This document shows positions 414 to 15,417 of a stretch of DNA of 24,373 nt, piece after piece. The DNA is from DATDCY01 sp031406795 [NCBI: Candidatus Rokuibacteriota bacterium]. GTDB taxonomy: Bacteria > JAUVQV01. Each line of letters starts with the position of its first letter. Within the stretch, counting starts at the first letter, position 1. The notes below the pieces were generated by a model. The model saw only the letters and a program-made list of their open reading frames with translations. It did not search any database and was not told the origin of the DNA. The translations under genes and the position numbers were made by a program. The DNA lies in contig JANOHV010000147.1 in NCBI GenBank assembly GCA_031406795.1, positions 1-24,373 on the forward strand. Reading direction: 5' to 3'.

Positions 414-446
414 ATGACGGTGCGGCGAGGTCGTACGGCGCGATGA
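414..446 (+). CDS. Putative 10-codon leader peptide upstream of the amidase
   Basis: ATG at 414 lies 9 bases after the purine-rich GGGGGAGGAG, the best ribosome-binding site in this region. It opens a reading frame of ten codons (MTVRRGRTAR) ending in TGA at 444-446. The stop overlaps the ATG at 443-445, which is in the amidase frame (ATGA). This looks like a short leader whose translation delivers ribosomes to the amidase start. It could instead be chance, with the amidase initiating elsewhere. No function is claimed for the arginine-rich peptide. Confidence 0.35.
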   Translation: MTVRRGRTAR

Positions 447-1513
447 TCGCCCGGTTTTCACGCAACCGCGAACAGCGGATGAAGCGGGAGATCTTCCGCG
501 GGGTCTACGAGGACAACCTGAGCCTGCTCGGGCGCACCTCGCCGCGGGCGTACGTCCGCAGACGCCTGCCCCGGGTCGCCAAGTTCGCGCTCTTCGCGGC
601 GACCCTCGTTCTCGGGATCCTGTTCACGGGCTCCACGCTCTCGCCGGTGTTCTTTCCCGTCCAGCAGATCCAGGCCCGGTTCGTCGCGGAGACGCCGCCT
701 CCAGCCGAGCCCCGGCCGCTGGCCCCGACGCCCGCCCCTGCGGCGACGCCGCAGCCGGGGCTCGACCCCGCGCGCTTCAAGGTCGGGCGCGGGCTGCCGT
801 TGAGCCGCGCGTTCGACCTCGGCGTGAAAACGATCCTGCTCGACCCCGGCCACGGCGGTGAGGACACCGGCGCCATCGGGCGCGGCGGCACGCACGAGAA
901 GGAGATCGCCCTCGACATCGCCCGCCGGCTCAAGCGCCGCCTCGAGTCGCGCACCGACGCCGAGGTGCTGCTGACGCGCGACGCCGACATCACGCTCCCC
1001 CTCGGCGAGCGCGTCGCGATCGCACACGCGAAGCACGCCGACCTGTTCGTCTCGATCCACCTCAACTTCGTGCCGAACAAGCCGATCAACATCATCGAGA
1101 CCTTCTACTTCGGGCCGGGGACCGACGCCGCCTCCCTGGAGCTGGCGCGCCGCGAGAACTCCGGCCAGGGGCCGGGGATGAGCGAGTTGAGCCAGATCAT
1201 CGAGCGTATGGAAACCCAGATGCGCCGCGAGGAGTCGCCGCGTCTCGCCGCCGCGATCCAGAACAGCCTCTACCGCAACAGCCACCGCGCGAATGCGGGC
1301 ATACTCGACTACGGCACCAAGCGCGGCCCCTTCGTCGTGCTCAACCAGGCGGACGTCCCGGCGGTGCTCGCCGAAGTCTCGTGCCTGAGCAACCGCGAGG
1401 AGGAGGAGCGGCTCGGCACGCCGGAGCACCGCGAAGACATCGCCGCCTACCTGGAAACCGGCATACTCGACTATCTGCGCAACGGGGAGACCACGCATGA
1501 GTCCAAAAAATGA
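443..1513 (+). CDS. N-acetylmuramoyl-L-alanine amidase (Amidase_3), membrane-anchored
   Basis: This 356-residue protein cleaves the bond between N-acetylmuramic acid and the stem peptide in peptidoglycan. Residues 1-45 are basic and cytoplasmic, 46-64 form one membrane segment, and a Pro/Ala-rich linker (84-106) leads to an Amidase_3 domain at about 128-345. Visible motifs are LLDPGHGG (zinc His137), THEKE (zinc Glu152), VSIHLN (zinc His206) and VLAEVSCLSN (catalytic Glu311). I chose ATG 443 because it overlaps the stop of a short upstream ORF that has the strong ribosome-binding site; GTG 404 sits directly on that site with no spacing, and ATG 479 is another option. The gene overlaps the actin-like gene by 17 bases, so the two are probably translated together and work at the envelope. 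Dedicated division amidases are usually secreted, whereas this one seems tethered to the inner membrane. Confidence 0.88.
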   Translation: MIARFSRNREQRMKREIFRGVYEDNLSLLGRTSPRAYVRRRLPRVAKFALFAATLVLGILFTGSTLSPVFFPVQQIQARFVAETPPPAEPRPLAPTPAPAATPQPGLDPARFKVGRGLPLSRAFDLGVKTILLDPGHGGEDTGAIGRGGTHEKEIALDIARRLKRRLESRTDAEVLLTRDADITLPLGERVAIAHAKHADLFVSIHLNFVPNKPINIIETFYFGPGTDAASLELARRENSGQGPGMSELSQIIERMETQMRREESPRLAAAIQNSLYRNSHRANAGILDYGTKRGPFVVLNQADVPAVLAEVSCLSNREEEERLGTPEHREDIAAYLETGILDYLRNGETTHESKK

Positions 1514-2510
1514 CGTCCTGTTCGTCGGCATCGACCTCGGCACTTCACGCTCGTCCATCTCCGCCGGCAACGGCCAGCGTCAGTGGATCGAGAGCTACGT
1601 CGGCTGGCCGAAGGACTTCATCGCGGCGCAGGTGGTCGGCAAGCCCGTCGTCTTCGGCAGCGACGTGCTGGAGTACCGGCTCTCCGTCGACGTCTCGCGC
1701 CCGCTGCAGAACGGCATCATCAAGGAGGGGATCAACCGCAATGAGGAGGCGGTCAAGGAGATCATCCGCCACCTGATCGAGCTGGCCGGCCCCTCCGCCG
1801 GCCAGAAGATCCACGCCGTCGTCGGCGTCCCCTCCGACTCGCTGAAGATCAACAAGCTGGCGATCCGCAAGGCGGTCGCCGAGTTCGTCGACTCGCTCGT
1901 CGTGGTCACCGAGCCCTTCGCGGTCGCCTACAGCCTCGGTCTGCTCAACAACGCGCTGGTGATCGACATCGGCGCCGGGACGACCGACCTGTGCATCATG
2001 CACGGGACGCTCCCGGGTGAGGACGACCAGCGCACGCTGCTGCAGGCCGGCGACTACATCGACGACCAGCTCTTCTCCTACCTGCAGGAGCGCTACCCGC
2101 GTTCGACCTTCAACAAGAACATGGTGCGCCTCTGGAAGGAGCAGTACAGCTTCGTCGGCGAGCCGCCCGGGCAGATCATGGTCGAGATGCCGGTCGACGG
2201 CAAGCCGATGCTTCACGACATCACGGCGGACATCAAGCGCGCCTGCGAGAGCATCCTGCCGGCCTTCGTCGAGGCCACCACGCAGATGATCGCCCGCTTC
2301 GACCCGGAGTTCCAGGCCAAGATCCGCAGGAACATCGTGCTCGCCGGCGGGGGCAGCCTGATCGCGGGGATCCGCGAGTACTTCCAGGCGGCGCTCAAGG
2401 AGTACGGCCCGAGCACCGTAACCTGCGTCAACGACCCGCTGTTCGCCGGCTCCGACGGCGCGCTCAAGCTCGCGCAGGAGATGCCCGCGCAATACTGGGA
2501 GAAGCTCTGA
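1497..2510 (+). CDS. Actin-like ATPase of the MamK-like type
   Basis: The 337-residue protein has an actin/Hsp70 ATPase fold: phosphate-1 loop VGIDLGTSRSS (10-20), phosphate-2 loop VIDIGAGTTD (155-164) and adenosine motif IVLAGGGSLIAGI (280-292). From memory of the Magnetospirillum protein, several stretches are characteristic of MamK rather than MreB, ParM or FtsA: GWPKDFI with VVGKPVVFG (36-54), RPLQNGI (68-74), VVTEPFAVAY (137-146; Glu139 would match the MamK catalytic glutamate), KEQYSFVG (214-221), ACESILP (249-255) and the C-terminal PAQYWEKL (330-337). MamK forms dynamic filaments that position magnetosomes. No magnetosome gene occurs in this window, so here it is more likely a general cytoskeletal filament. 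It overlaps the amidase stop by 17 bases and shares one base with the lipoprotein start. The MamK assignment rests on remembered motifs and needs a tree. Confidence 0.82.
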   Translation: MSPKNDVLFVGIDLGTSRSSISAGNGQRQWIESYVGWPKDFIAAQVVGKPVVFGSDVLEYRLSVDVSRPLQNGIIKEGINRNEEAVKEIIRHLIELAGPSAGQKIHAVVGVPSDSLKINKLAIRKAVAEFVDSLVVVTEPFAVAYSLGLLNNALVIDIGAGTTDLCIMHGTLPGEDDQRTLLQAGDYIDDQLFSYLQERYPRSTFNKNMVRLWKEQYSFVGEPPGQIMVEMPVDGKPMLHDITADIKRACESILPAFVEATTQMIARFDPEFQAKIRRNIVLAGGGSLIAGIREYFQAALKEYGPSTVTCVNDPLFAGSDGALKLAQEMPAQYWEKL

Positions 2511-2974
2511 TGCGGAAAGCCGGGGCGCTCGGCACCGCGGTGTTCCTAGCGCTGGCCCTCGGCGCGTACGGCTGCGGTCTGGTGGATTCGCTGTCCCCGT
2601 TCGGGATCGGCACCCGGGACTACGCGGCGGAGGCTTCGGGCGCGAACCTCAACGGCGTCTGGTCGGGAACGTCCGGGGACGGGGGGACGGTCACCTTTCA
2701 GGTCGGCGACTCCGAAGTGAACGAACTGGTGCTTGTGCACGTGACGGGCGATTGCATCATCAATTTCGATGGCTCGGAGGCCGCGGTCCCCATCGTCGAC
2801 GGGGTGTTCACGATCGAGCGGGGCCTGACGAGCCTGGCACAGGGAAGGATCATCATCACGGGCCGCTTCACCTCATCGAGCACCTGCGTCGGCAATTTCA
2901 CCTACGAAGGGCTCCCGGCGAGTTCCTGCCCGACCAGCGGGGTCGGGTCCTTCCTCGCCGGCAAAGTCTTCTAG
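2510..2974 (+). CDS. Hypothetical exported protein, probable lipoprotein
   Basis: I do not recognise the family of this 154-residue protein. It starts with a typical export signal (MRKAG then hydrophobic residues 6-20) ending at GAYGC, a degenerate lipobox with Cys22, so lipid attachment is likely but not certain. The mature part is rich in Gly, Thr, Ser and Val, with alternating hydrophobic residues suggesting a beta-sandwich, and has three further cysteines (in GDCIINF, STCVGNF and SSCPTSG), two of which could form a disulfide. The start ATG shares its A with the actin stop (TGATG), a strong sign of translational coupling. Together with the amidase and actin it may form an envelope module; that role is inferred from position only. 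Confidence 0.7.
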   Translation: MRKAGALGTAVFLALALGAYGCGLVDSLSPFGIGTRDYAAEASGANLNGVWSGTSGDGGTVTFQVGDSEVNELVLVHVTGDCIINFDGSEAAVPIVDGVFTIERGLTSLAQGRIIITGRFTSSSTCVGNFTYEGLPASSCPTSGVGSFLAGKVF

Positions 2975-12162: not shown

Positions 12163-12627
12163 ATGAAAAAGGCAAACGCGCAGCAGAAGGCGTCGAGCGC
12201 GACCGCCCGGTTCACGCAGTATCTCTCCGAGCGGGGGCTGCGACTGACGGGCCAGCGGCGCGTTATCGCCGACCTCTTCTTCCGGTCCGAGGGGCACCAC
12301 AGCGCCGAGGAGATTTCGCGCATGGTCCGGGAGGCGAATCCGGGGATCGGGCCCGCCACGGTGTACCGGACGATCAAATTGCTCCGGGAAGCCGGCTTGG
12401 CAACGGGCATGAACACCGGGGACGGACTGGCGCGCTACGAGTCGCCCTTCCGCCGCTCTCACCACGATCACCTTGTCTGCCGGCGCTGCAACCGGATTGT
12501 CGAGTTCGAGAACGACCAGATCGAGGCGCTGCAGCAGCGGGTGGCCGAGCGGCACGGGTTCGTCGTCACCGACCACCGGCTGGAGCTCTACGGGGTCTGC
12601 GGCGCGTGCCGCGGGGCGGGCGGATAA
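12163..12627 (+). CDS. fur: Fur-family iron-responsive repressor
   Basis: The 154-residue protein is an iron-dependent DNA-binding repressor by family and context. It has the winged-helix N-terminal domain (LRLTGQRRVIADLFF at 26-40; recognition helix near GPATVYRTIKLLREAGLA, 63-80) and a dimerisation domain with RSHHDHLVCRRC (98-109) and YGVCGAC (143-149). Cys106/Cys109 and Cys146/Cys149 form the structural zinc site of many Fur proteins, and the HHDH motif supplies metal ligands. The Fur box in its own promoter and another before feoA support iron sensing rather than zinc (Zur) or peroxide (PerR) sensing. PerR remains an alternative that sequence alone cannot fully exclude. There is no good Shine-Dalgarno before ATG 12163. 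Confidence 0.9.
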   Translation: MKKANAQQKASSATARFTQYLSERGLRLTGQRRVIADLFFRSEGHHSAEEISRMVREANPGIGPATVYRTIKLLREAGLATGMNTGDGLARYESPFRRSHHDHLVCRRCNRIVEFENDQIEALQQRVAERHGFVVTDHRLELYGVCGACRGAGG

Positions 12628-12646
12628 ATTTTTTTCAGGGCCATCT

Positions 12647-12664
12647 GATATTGATTCTCATTCC
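12647..12664 (+). promoter_or_regulatory. Fur box before the feo operon
   Basis: GATATTGATTCTCATTCC reads as three Fur hexamers (GATATT, GATTCT, CATTCC), the first two close to NATWAT. It lies 20 bases before the first feoA and overlaps a possible -10 (GATATT). A clear -35 was not found. The site would repress ferrous iron uptake when iron is plentiful. Confidence 0.7.
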
Positions 12665-12683
12665 CACAGAAAGGAAGGCCCCG

Positions 12684-12956
12684 ATGCACACTGCCGCAGG
12701 CCACCCCGGACGCAGCGTCCTCACTTTCCCGCTCGGACTTCTCGGTGCCGGCGAGCAGGCGCAAATCACCTCCATCAGGGCCACCCCTGAGCGTACCTCC
12801 TCCGTCCGGGCGGAGGACATGGGCCTGCGTGTCGGCAAAACCGTGGAGATGCTCACCAACGGCGGGGGCGGCCCGCTGCTCCTCAAAATTGACGAATCGA
12901 GGCTCGCCATCGACCGCAGAGTGGCCATGAGAATACTCGTCAGGAGGCAGCGATGA
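12684..12956 (+). CDS. feoA: FeoA-type SH3-domain protein, first copy
   Basis: FeoA is a small cytoplasmic protein that assists FeoB in ferrous iron uptake. This 90-residue copy has a roughly 20-residue N-terminal extension, then the beta-barrel core: GAGEQAQITSIRA, a long loop with SSVRAEDMGLRVGKTVEML, and PLLLKIDESRLAIDRRVAMRILV. The conserved 'R...DMG...G' turn and the 'L.I......A..I.V' end are those of FeoA. AAGGAAGG at 12671-12678 gives a good ribosome-binding site for ATG 12684. It overlaps the next gene by four bases (ATGA). Sequence difference from the second copy suggests separate roles rather than a recent duplication. Confidence 0.88.
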   Translation: MHTAAGHPGRSVLTFPLGLLGAGEQAQITSIRATPERTSSVRAEDMGLRVGKTVEMLTNGGGGPLLLKIDESRLAIDRRVAMRILVRRQR

Positions 12957-13180
12957 ACTTGGCAATGATGAAACCCGGAGAACGAGGAAGGATAACCGCC
13001 ATCGGGGCGATCGGTCCGCTGCGACGCCGCTTGATGGACATGGGGGTGCTGGTGGGGGAAGACATCGCGGTCGTGAAAGTCGCCCCGCTGGGGGATCCGA
13101 TCGAAGTGACGATCAAGAGTTACCAGCTCTCGCTCCGCAAGAAGGAAGCGGAAGGGATCGCGGTGGAGGTGTTGAAATGA
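12953..13180 (+). CDS. feoA: FeoA-type SH3-domain protein, second copy
   Basis: This 75-residue copy is the compact canonical form: MKPGERGRITAIGAIGPLRRRLMDMGVLVGEDIAVVKVAPLGDPIEVTIKSY (residues 6-57), ending SLRKKEAEGIAVEVL. The RRRLMDMG turn and the GDPIEV.I strand are FeoA signatures. It overlaps both neighbours by four bases (ATGA at 12953 and at 13177), so it is translated in strict coupling with feoB. Being nearest to feoB and the more typical copy, it is the likelier direct partner of the transporter; the other copy may regulate or substitute. Confidence 0.93.
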   Translation: MNLAMMKPGERGRITAIGAIGPLRRRLMDMGVLVGEDIAVVKVAPLGDPIEVTIKSYQLSLRKKEAEGIAVEVLK

Positions 13181-15417
13181 GCATTGCAACTGAACCGCTG
13201 TGCATCGGCGAAAAGGCCTTCGGGCGTGCCGCTCATAGCCCGGCCGCGAAACGCACCATCATCGTTGCGGTCGCCGGCAATCCCAATGCCGGTAAATCGA
13301 CCCTGATCAATGCCATCGCCGGCAGCCGGCTGCAGGTCGGCAACTGGCCGGGCGTCACGGTGGAGAAGAAGGAGGCCCGGTTCGAGTTCGAAGGCAGCCG
13401 CATCCGTCTGATCGATCTGCCCGGCGCGTACTCCCTCTCTCCCTACTCCCAGGAGGAGATCATCGCCCGCGACTACCTGGTGCGCGAGAAGCCCGACCTG
13501 GTGATCAACGTGGTCGACGCTACCAACCTGGAGCGCAACCTCTATCTCACCGTGCAACTGCTGGAGCTGGGCCTGCCGGTGGTGATGGCCCTCAACATCT
13601 ACGACGAGGCCGAGGCCAAAGGATATCGGATCGACATCAAGGGGATCGAGCGCATGCTCGGGATCCCCGTAGTCCCCACGGCCGCTACGAAAGGGCGGGG
13701 AACCACCGAACTTCTCGAGGCCGTGGTGCGGACCGCCAGCGCCCCCGCACGCCTCCCGAAGACGCCGAAGTACGACGCGGATATCGCGCAGGCCATCGAC
13801 GGCGTCGTCGCGGTCATCCGCGAGCGCCACCCGGAGCTGGCGAGCACGTACGCGTTGCGCTGGCTCGCCTCCAAGCTGATGGAGGGAGACCAGGAGGTGG
13901 CCCGGGAGGTCAAGATCGACCTCGACGGACTGGAGAATGAGTCGCTACGCCATCTGCGCCGCGCACACGGCGAGGATCTCGAGGCGCTGATGGCCGAGGC
14001 TCGCTACGCGCTCGCGTCGGGACTGACCCGCGAGGTGCTCCGGAAGCCCGAGCTGCGCAAGACCGAGATCACCGAGAAGATCGACCGCATCGTCCTCCAT
14101 CGTCTCTTCGGCATCCCGATCTTCCTGGCCGCCATGTGGCTGGTCTTCAAGCTGACGTTCGATCTCTCCTCGCCCTTCGGCGACTGGCTCGACGGGATGA
14201 TCGCCGGTCCCTTCCGGCGCTGGATCGAAGCGGGCCTCGGGCTGGTCGGCGCCCCGGACTGGACGGTAGCGCTGGCCCTCGACGGGGTCATCGCCGGAGT
14301 GGGCTTCGTGCTCGTCTTCGTCCCGGTCATCTTCGCGATGATGTTCTTCATCACGTTCCTCGAAGGCAGCGGCTACATGGCGCGCGCCGCCTTCGTGATG
14401 GATCGGGTAATGCACGCCATCGGCCTGCACGGCAAGAGCTTCATCCCGATGCTCCTCGGCTTCGGGTGCAACGTTCCCGGCATCTATGCCACCCGCACGC
14501 TCGAGAACCCGCGGGACAAGGCGCTGACCGCGCTGCTGCTGCCGCTGATGTCGTGCGGGGCCCGGCTGCCGGTCTACGTCCTCTTCGCGGGAATCTTCTT
14601 CGCCGACAGCGCGGGGACGGTCATCTGGTCCCTCTACGTGCTGGGGATCCTGCTCGCCGTCCTGATGGGGGTGATCTTCAAGAAGACCCTCTTCCGCGGC
14701 GATGCGCCGCTGTTCATCATGGAGCTGCCCCCCTACCGGCTGCCGACGCTGAGGAGCCTGCTGATCCACACCTGGGAGAAGGGGAAGCACTTCCTGATCA
14801 AGGCCGGCACGTACATCCTGGCCGTCTCGGTGTTCGTCTGGTTCCTGCTGAACCTCCCCTGGGGCGTCGAGAACAAGCGCGACTCCTATCTCGGCAGGAC
14901 GGGCGCCGCCATTGCGCCGATCTTCGCTCCTATCGGCTTCGGCACCTGGGAGGCGTCGGCATCGCTGATCACCGGCATCATCGCCAAGGAGATCGTCGTC
15001 GGGACCATGGGCGAGATCTACGCCCCGTCCGCTGCGCAGGAAGCACCGACCGCGGGCCCGCGACCCACGCTGGGCGAGGATCTGCGGGAGATCGCCGTCT
15101 CCTTCGGCGGCGCCGTCAAGGCAGCCGGCGCCAACGTCGTCTCGACCTTCGGCGTCAGCAGTCTGGCCGCGCAGGACGAGAGCGGCGCTTCCCCCCTCAA
15201 GACGGCCGTCGGCGGCGCCTTCACGCCGCTCACCGCCTACGCCTTCATGGTCTTCGTGCTGCTCTACATGCCATGCGTCGTGGTCGCCATCGCGATGCGG
15301 CAGGAATTCGGCTCCTGGAAGTGGTTCGGCGTGGCATTCGCCTACCAGTCGGCGCTCGCCTGGAGCGTCGCGTTCATAATCTACCAGGGGGGAAGACTCC
15401 TGGGACTCGGCGGTTGA
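13177..15417 (+). CDS. feoB: Ferrous iron transporter FeoB
   Basis: FeoB is the inner-membrane ferrous iron importer. The 746-residue protein has a short N-terminal extension of about 25 residues, a G domain with G1 GNPNAGKST (34-42), the GNWPGVTVEK switch, G3 DLPGAYSL and G4 NIYD (where NMxD is common), a helical GDI domain, and then a polytopic membrane region. Membrane-domain signatures include GSGYMARAAFVMDR, GFGCNVPGIYATRTL, LMSCGARLPVYVLFAG and GIIAKEIVVGTMGEIYA. The second Gly-Cys-Asn and Ser-Cys-Gly motifs carry the cysteines proposed for the iron path. It lies in a feoA-feoA-feoB unit under a Fur box and is followed by a small Cys-rich membrane protein one base after its stop. Confidence 0.97.
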   Translation: MSIATEPLCIGEKAFGRAAHSPAAKRTIIVAVAGNPNAGKSTLINAIAGSRLQVGNWPGVTVEKKEARFEFEGSRIRLIDLPGAYSLSPYSQEEIIARDYLVREKPDLVINVVDATNLERNLYLTVQLLELGLPVVMALNIYDEAEAKGYRIDIKGIERMLGIPVVPTAATKGRGTTELLEAVVRTASAPARLPKTPKYDADIAQAIDGVVAVIRERHPELASTYALRWLASKLMEGDQEVAREVKIDLDGLENESLRHLRRAHGEDLEALMAEARYALASGLTREVLRKPELRKTEITEKIDRIVLHRLFGIPIFLAAMWLVFKLTFDLSSPFGDWLDGMIAGPFRRWIEAGLGLVGAPDWTVALALDGVIAGVGFVLVFVPVIFAMMFFITFLEGSGYMARAAFVMDRVMHAIGLHGKSFIPMLLGFGCNVPGIYATRTLENPRDKALTALLLPLMSCGARLPVYVLFAGIFFADSAGTVIWSLYVLGILLAVLMGVIFKKTLFRGDAPLFIMELPPYRLPTLRSLLIHTWEKGKHFLIKAGTYILAVSVFVWFLLNLPWGVENKRDSYLGRTGAAIAPIFAPIGFGTWEASASLITGIIAKEIVVGTMGEIYAPSAAQEAPTAGPRPTLGEDLREIAVSFGGAVKAAGANVVSTFGVSSLAAQDESGASPLKTAVGGAFTPLTAYAFMVFVLLYMPCVVVAIAMRQEFGSWKWFGVAFAYQSALAWSVAFIIYQGGRLLGLGG

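Follow-up and report, generated by a model that had tools for sequence, protein, structure and literature searches.

A widespread gene pair of a bitopic cell wall amidase and a MamK-family actin, with a candidate docking motif in the amidase tail

The bacterial actin MreB is coupled to the cell wall through RodZ, a bitopic membrane protein whose cytoplasmic part binds MreB by a folded helix-turn-helix domain and which acts as both membrane anchor and polymerization regulator for MreB. In Hyphomonas, the tail of the bitopic M23 peptidase LmdC binds the bactofilin BacA with a dissociation constant of about 15 uM, and the LmdC counterpart of Rhodospirillum is recruited by its tail (PMC10945521). 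The actin MamK has been studied almost only as a magnetosome protein; MamK homologs also occur in bacteria without magnetosomes, against which MamK is not monophyletic (PMC7449369), and it has long been an open question by what means MamK retains its cargo in non-Magnetospirillum bacteria, which seemingly lack MamJ (PMC10653835). Here, we analyze a 24,373-nucleotide contig of a Candidatus Rokuibacteriota bacterium (JANOHV010000147.1; the whole stretch is hereafter called the window), in which an amidase gene overlaps the gene for a MamK-family actin, and show that members of a large, well-supported clade of this family are encoded next to a wall hydrolase, in surroundings free of magnetosome genes. 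The pair represents a widespread two-gene module of cytoskeletal protein and hydrolase within the MamK superfamily, the actin version of a type of module already described. The two genes are encoded side by side and are present or absent together, the amidase is bitopic as judged from its sequence and has a conserved active site, and a motif in its cytoplasmic tail recurs. No report of an amidase paired with a MamK-type actin, or of the tail motif, was found among open-licence full texts.

The amidase-actin pair and its distribution

The upstream gene of the pair (positions 443 to 1513, plus strand; ATG at 443, TGA at 1511-1513, with an in-frame GTG at 404) encodes a 356-residue N-acetylmuramoyl-L-alanine amidase of the Amidase_3 family, consisting of a cytoplasmic tail, a single predicted transmembrane helix (residues 44-62; 572 to 628) and an AmiA/B/C-like catalytic domain (residues 131-341; 833 to 1465) that presumably faces the periplasm. 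It overlaps by 17 bases the gene for the 337-residue MamK-family actin-like protein (1497 to 2510, plus strand; ATG at 1497, TGA at 2508-2510). A contig scan with the window actin yielded 161 relatives, of which the best 80 were kept, the distant half lying outside all counts of 80 given here. In 75 of these 80 relatives, the gene immediately upstream, in the same orientation, encodes an amidase of the same family, and the pairing is therefore not due to chance; the five cases without it are locus L062 and the archaeal bins L077-L080. By record title, the 74 loci that remain after merging identical actins are labeled Nitrospirota (23), Thermodesulfobacteriota (17), Pseudomonadota (12), Bacteroidota (5), Myxococcota (4), Acidobacteriota (3), Rhodothermota (3) and Rokuibacteriota (1), with six carrying no phylum label. 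By these titles the pair spans at least six phyla; the count is set at this bound, and not at eight, because most loci are metagenome bins, Rokuibacteriota is represented by one bin, and one 'Myxococcota' label falls on a record titled Deltaproteobacteria only.

Whole genomes were searched with the NCBIfam MamK model as the only seed (E 1e-50, relaxed to 1e-40 for the phylum of L080), with genomes sampled in the larger groups. Matches were found in 64 of 176 genomes of the Nitrospirota order of L004, 2 of 385 in the class of L047, 16 of 395 in the phylum of L034, 18 of 100 in Rhodothermia (the class of L070), 11 of 149 in Acidobacteriota (the phylum of L055) and 12 of 97 in the phylum of L080. 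In the L004 order, the scores split into 22 genomes at 455-506 bits versus 42 at 400-441 bits or with partial matches, the latter being of the amidase type. A Mam relative is encoded in the flank read in 20 of the 22 high-scoring genomes, and an amidase lies upstream in 41 of the 42 amidase-type matches, the exception (L213) being at a contig edge; the same holds for 18 of 18 matches in Rhodothermia and 11 of 11 in Acidobacteriota. Orthologs of the window amidase (at least 255 bits) are present in 41 of the 176 genomes of the L004 order, every one with an amidase-type actin, and are absent from the other genomes of the order, including the 22 with a magnetosome-type MamK; the remaining Amidase_3 matches in the 176 genomes do not exceed 165 bits, and their alignments mainly cover the catalytic domain. 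Furthermore, distances among the amidases track those among the actins (50 pairs; rho, 0.76; highest value under permutation, 0.20).

A survey of neighboring genes covered 187 distinct MamK-like sequences or fragments (loci to L270, with fragments from overlapping loci included and flanks of varying length) and identified the amidase beside 120 of them, with the two genes overlapping in 92 of the 120 loci (by longest-open reading frame starts). Using as queries the MamE, MamB, MamQ, MamM and MamP proteins of locus L232, of which MamM and MamP score above their NCBIfam cut-offs and the MamB-, MamE- and MamQ-like proteins below theirs, we found no strong Mam relative in the sequence read at any of the 120 amidase-linked loci, nor anywhere in the 24-kb window. 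Among the 67 entries without the amidase, 26 full-length ones have a relative of MamE, MamM, MamP or MamQ in the flank. We also clustered the open reading frames (ORFs) of at least 80 residues encoded within 6 kb in 39 diverse loci, and no third conserved component emerged: besides actin and amidase, the largest group, a downstream gene, occurs in 7 of 39 loci (six Nitrospirota by title), followed by antisense ORFs over the pair itself (6 and 4 loci) and a gene 2.7 kb upstream of the pair in 5 loci (four labeled Bacteroidota, one Nitrospirota). In the Defluviicoccus chromosome (L047, 8571-10005), the amidase is split over several frames next to an open actin gene, a decaying pair or a sequencing fault.

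In the window, the actin gene is followed, on the same strand, by a gene for a small secreted or lipoprotein-like protein (2510 to 2974; ATG at 2510, TAG at 2972-2974) that has one base in common with the actin stop codon. Its product matches no Pfam or NCBIfam family, and its lipobox-like AYGC is non-canonical as judged by eye. Relatives of this gene were found in none of the 80 actin-relative loci at E 0.01, and for this reason a three-gene operon was rejected and the conserved unit is taken to be the amidase and actin genes, the third gene standing outside it. The initial annotation of the window had correctly placed the three ORFs and their overlaps, had remarked on the absence of mam genes, for which the survey above agrees, and had read the three genes as one coupled system; of that system, the amidase-actin part holds and the lipoprotein-like gene is no member. 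Elsewhere in the window (12163-15417), the ORF list, inspected by eye with no search run, shows a Fur-like regulator, a FeoA-like protein and a FeoB iron transporter in a row.

Phylogenetic position of the actin

The window actin scores 406.6 bits against the NCBIfam MamK model NF040964 (cut-off, 400), compared with 200 bits against the BeeR model NF053558 (cut-off, 530) and 76.7 bits against the MreB model (cut-off, 293), which assigns it to the MamK family and to neither of the other two. Its best relative of solved structure is MamK of strain AMB-1, aligned over nearly the full length at 307 bits. The predicted structure has a mean pLDDT (predicted local distance difference test) of 92.6, and in a Foldseek search MamK structures were closest (5ljv; TM score, 0.93; 41% identity), followed by BeeR (8r2n).

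In the main tree, of 65 rows, the amidase-linked actins, including that of the window, form one clade (support 100/99) that contains all 27 sampled amidase-linked actins and none linked to mam genes; the L062 actin, which has no amidase, is nested inside it. Magnetosome MamK forms two separate clades, each with 100/100 support, one comprising AMB-1 MamK, an alphaproteobacterial locus, L265 and the tandem-mamK Desulfobacterota, and the other comprising the clusters of the Nitrospirota order along with some clusters of Desulfobacterota. A second tree of 98 rows, to which MreB-like actins and BeeR were added, recovers the same clades, with BeeR on a long branch. By these sequence comparisons, the window actin is a member of the MamK superfamily that falls outside both magnetosome MamK clades. 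The view in the initial annotation that the protein is MamK-like is thus borne out by family score and fold, and the tree retains it in the superfamily, although not in either magnetosome clade, a placement that counts in part against that annotation by its own criterion. The further suggestion that such loci represent the ancestral context of magnetosome MamK is not established: the 65-row tree does not settle the branching order among the amidase-linked, the two magnetosome, the Methanoperedens, the L267 and the L261/L264 clades, and when MreB and BeeR served as the root, long branches met, for which reason no ancestral state is assigned. On the practical side, many actins outside the magnetosome clades pass the 400-bit NCBIfam cut-off for MamK, so that annotation and surveys of magnetotaxis markers can mislead.

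Desulfobacterota harbor a further MamK-like clade (L261-L264, L266), in which the gene is preceded in L261-L263 and L266 by those for a 117-residue protein and a protein of 603-663 residues, with neither amidase nor Mam relatives adjoining; the large upstream protein of L261 has no Pfam domain. In Poseidonia-type archaea (L078, L080, L095-L098, L223-L230), most matching genomes encode two divergent MamK-family paralogs.

The amidase, its tail motif and other MamK neighbors

The window amidase matches Pfam Amidase_3 with 147.9 bits (4e-43; gathering score, 27) and stays below the equivalog cut-offs of AmiA (124 versus 400 bits), AmiB (80 versus 532) and AmiC (106 versus 700). The predicted fold consists of the tail, a hydrophobic helix, a low-confidence linker and an AmiA/AmiB/AmiC2-like domain, and a simple scan detects a single hydrophobic helix in 111 of the 120 amidases, some of the misses being cut by contig ends. 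Residues H137, E152, H206 and E311, which are assigned as the zinc-ligand and catalytic positions of the family, are invariant in our alignments, one of which holds 51 amidases, indicating that catalysis is under selection. A long helix of the model (residues 247-283, the first part of low confidence) presumably occupies the position of the AmiA/B/C regulatory helix.

The cytoplasmic tails of the amidases vary in both length and sequence except for one stretch, K-x2-IL-[RK]-G-VY-E-[DE]-N-L, which in the window protein lies within residues 12-31 (RMKREIFRGVYEDNLSLLGR; 476 to 535), a candidate MamK-family docking peptide predicted to be helical; in the structure prediction, residues 2-28 form one helix. 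The motif asparagine (N25) is as invariant as the catalytic histidines and glutamates, being conserved throughout a 43-row alignment and in 51 of 51 rows of another, one of which has a cut N terminus and is perhaps aligned by chance. Our first pattern matched 112 of the 120 amidases. Contig ends truncate three of the eight that it missed (L011, L059 and L074), and a fourth, L047, is interrupted by frame breaks, with a tail that still scores 24.1; L202 is a scan artifact (the motif is present in its source genome, G120), and L022, L171 and L173 carry variant forms. In 45 of 46 whole genomes (the miss being G1175), the top match of a 20-residue profile is the window-type amidase, which is unsurprising given that the profile was built from tails of many families also searched; no other convincing client was found in the same 46 genomes, the next-best matches having E of 0.02 or worse. 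In genome G1000 (L164, 2545-3720, minus strand), the amidase tail carries the motif twice in tandem.

We then asked which other proteins of the loci resemble the tail, using a hidden Markov model and a scoring matrix made from amidase tails only. Among all ORFs of the loci, 12 distinct non-amidase ORFs matched at E <10, and 8 of these adjoin a MamK-family gene, a position held by 352 of 13,027 ORFs (enrichment p 1e-10, a value that is too kind because the eight matches come from about four lineages). Within magnetosome clusters, the 23 scored ORFs just upstream of mamK (from 22 of 25 mam loci; L231, L237 and L239 dropped out owing to ORF picking, and L231 does have the motif) reach a median score of 6.9 versus -5.7 for 484 other cluster ORFs (p 2e-8), two of which reach a score of 10, and in 19 of the 23 the best motif window ends 2-10 residues from the C terminus. 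In Nitrospirota, where the gene order is man1-mamK-man2-mad10-man3-mamP, the protein encoded upstream of mamK is Man1 (PMC8353452, PMC9376291); we call the Desulfobacterota counterparts Man1 by gene position. Man1 has been tied to crystal morphology on sequence grounds (PMC9840458), and PMC8353452 describes the man genes as not studied. The C-terminal consensus of Man1, KLDEDKKMLLRGIVQENIDLREET (17-row alignment), is not the most conserved stretch of this protein.

A MamK-like actin is also encoded in 19 of 34 genomes of the Methanoperedens family, with an ORF directly downstream in 18 of the 19 loci. In all 18 of these partners, the best motif window lies 2-28 residues from the C terminus, with scores of 4.3-23.1, compared with a maximum of 5.5 for 67 other ORFs; 16 of the 18 were new to the test, L093 and L299 apparently carrying the same genes as L077 and L079, which had been seen before. 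All 10 partners tested, as well as that of L077, contain the archaellum FlaD/E domain Arch_fla_DE. These coiled-coil proteins ending in the motif are encoded at L077 (11006-11578), L079 (1510-2118) and L298-L315. In the Nitrospirota-order genome G093, a CheW-domain protein encoded upstream of one mamK ends near RKKAILSELIKDNLLI (13.9 bits), and L062, the member of the amidase-linked clade without the amidase, retains the motif on a separate ORF of 83 residues (27.8 bits). G093 itself carries two mamK genes of the magnetosome type, neither with a Mam relative in the flanks read; the one preceded by the CheW gene is at L180 (6533-7252 and 7364-8443), and the other (L252) is preceded by two-component genes.

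The simplest reading of this distribution is that the tail motif would be a docking peptide for MamK-family filaments, placed on whatever cargo is carried, and its recurrence beside MamK-like filaments points to a single docking system that would serve the cell wall, magnetosomes and archaeal proteins alike.

Proposed mechanism, alternatives and known systems

We consider it likely that the filament recruits the amidase through the tail helix so that peptidoglycan is cut at chosen sites. The actin, judging by its family and fold, would polymerize in the cytoplasm, and the amidase would span the inner membrane once, with its catalytic domain in the periplasm. The short helix of the cytoplasmic tail would dock on the actin, the filament would gather or position the amidase, and peptide stems would be cut from the glycan strands where the filament lies, most likely in the service of division, cell separation or shape. 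That a filament steers wall cutting, as proposed in the initial annotation, is therefore kept as the best reading, the binding itself being predicted. The broader proposition, toward which we lean with somewhat less assurance, holds that one docking helix plugs MamK-superfamily actins into different partners, namely, the wall amidase (six phyla or more), Man1 (Nitrospirota and some of the Desulfobacterota), the FlaD/E-domain protein of Methanoperedens and the CheW protein of G093.

Much of the evidence could also be accommodated by control in the opposite direction, with the amidase tail serving as membrane anchor and polymerization regulator of the actin, so that the state of the filament, rather than its position, regulates cutting. 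The same facts fit, including the one-to-one co-occurrence of the two genes in the L004 order, and the motif might sequester monomers in the manner of the C-terminal helix of arcadin-2, which binds the archaeal actin crenactin (PMC5173318). The invariance of the active site across 51 amidases speaks for selected catalysis, which does not by itself decide the direction of control, and overall we find this alternative rather unlikely. Considerably less probable is that the two proteins are ordinary products of co-transcribed neighbors that never touch, the tail motif binding a lipid or some other protein: translational coupling alone could hold together genes that overlap in 92 of 120 loci, but no other neighbor is retained in more than 7 of 39, and a profile made from the tails alone finds unrelated proteins encoded beside other MamK-family genes. 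That the window actin serves as a genuine MamK in the magnetosomes of a magnetotactic host, with the mam genes lying beyond the window, we regard as the least credible of these possibilities. It passes the NCBIfam cut-off, but its clade holds all 27 sampled amidase-linked actins and not a single mam-linked one, and the amidase-linked loci, the window included, are devoid of strong Mam relatives in the sequence read.

Recruitment and shared docking also have to be set against a number of observations that weigh on the other side. All 13 bacterial genomes with the pair that were inspected encode a second actin, taken as MreB (58-92 bits to the MamK model), and because of its presence the window-type actin would be an addition to the standard wall machinery; many pair-carrying genomes likewise possess another Amidase_3. 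In the phylum of L034, only 3 of the 16 genomes with a family match have the amidase, the others belonging to other clades, so that pairing is a property of one clade and not of the whole family. As regards shared docking, individual Man1 proteins score weakly (-3.0 to 18.6 bits, with unrelated ORFs reaching 10.9 and 12.0), and 3 of the 18 Methanoperedens partners fall below 5.5, the score of the best other ORF. Among alphaproteobacterial mamK neighbors, read at 16 of 27 loci (of the remaining 11, nine had no actin by a simple test and two were copies), the best score is 3.5, and none has the motif at the C terminus as in Man1. No terminal motif was found beside the Poseidonia actins read or beside those of the tandem-mamK Desulfobacterota, of L261-L264 or of L265; the protein between the two actins of L255 scores 6.8, in an interior position. 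The case for shared docking is one of position and number, and the loci are related, as with the few lineages behind the profile enrichment.

If these proposals are true, the positioning of magnetosomes would be one use among others of a filament of more general function, and Man1, in print tied to crystal shape, would act as the adaptor for MamK in Nitrospirota and some Desulfobacterota. Should the tail peptide bind, the way in which MamK holds cargo outside Magnetospirillum would become directly testable, and a new actin-based placement of wall cutting would come into view.

Compared with described systems, the window actin resembles MamK in NCBIfam family, fold, ATP-site signatures and the C-terminal QYW-x2-L found in AMB-1, and differs from it in belonging to a separate clade, in having a wall amidase as partner and in the absence of a strong Mam relative nearby. 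BeeR, an actin of Verrucomicrobiota, is likewise a relative of MamK in organisms without magnetosomes, with a function described as not known (PMC11929497); by its score and long branch, it is distant from the window actin. MreB-RodZ shares with the pair the coupling of an actin to the wall by a bitopic protein, and serves wall synthesis, with the MreB-like second actin present besides the window-type one. In crenactin-arcadin-2, the C-terminal helix of the partner binds the actin, as proposed here for the MamK-family motif, and its effect there is to sequester monomers (PMC5173318).

The closest parallel is LmdC-BacA (PMC10945521). Both systems are bicistronic, with an overlap of 17 bases in Hyphomonas as in the window, both combine a bitopic wall hydrolase gene with an overlapping or adjoining gene for a cytoskeletal polymer, and both are spread widely over phyla; the tail docks on the polymer in LmdC-BacA and is proposed to do so here. 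The window pair departs from the pairing of a bactofilin with an M23 peptidase in each of its parts: the polymer belongs to the actin family, the enzyme is an amidase instead of a DD-endopeptidase, and the tail is a predicted helix, compared with the beta-hairpin of LmdC. By analogy, then, the amidase-actin module is the actin counterpart of LmdC-bactofilin.

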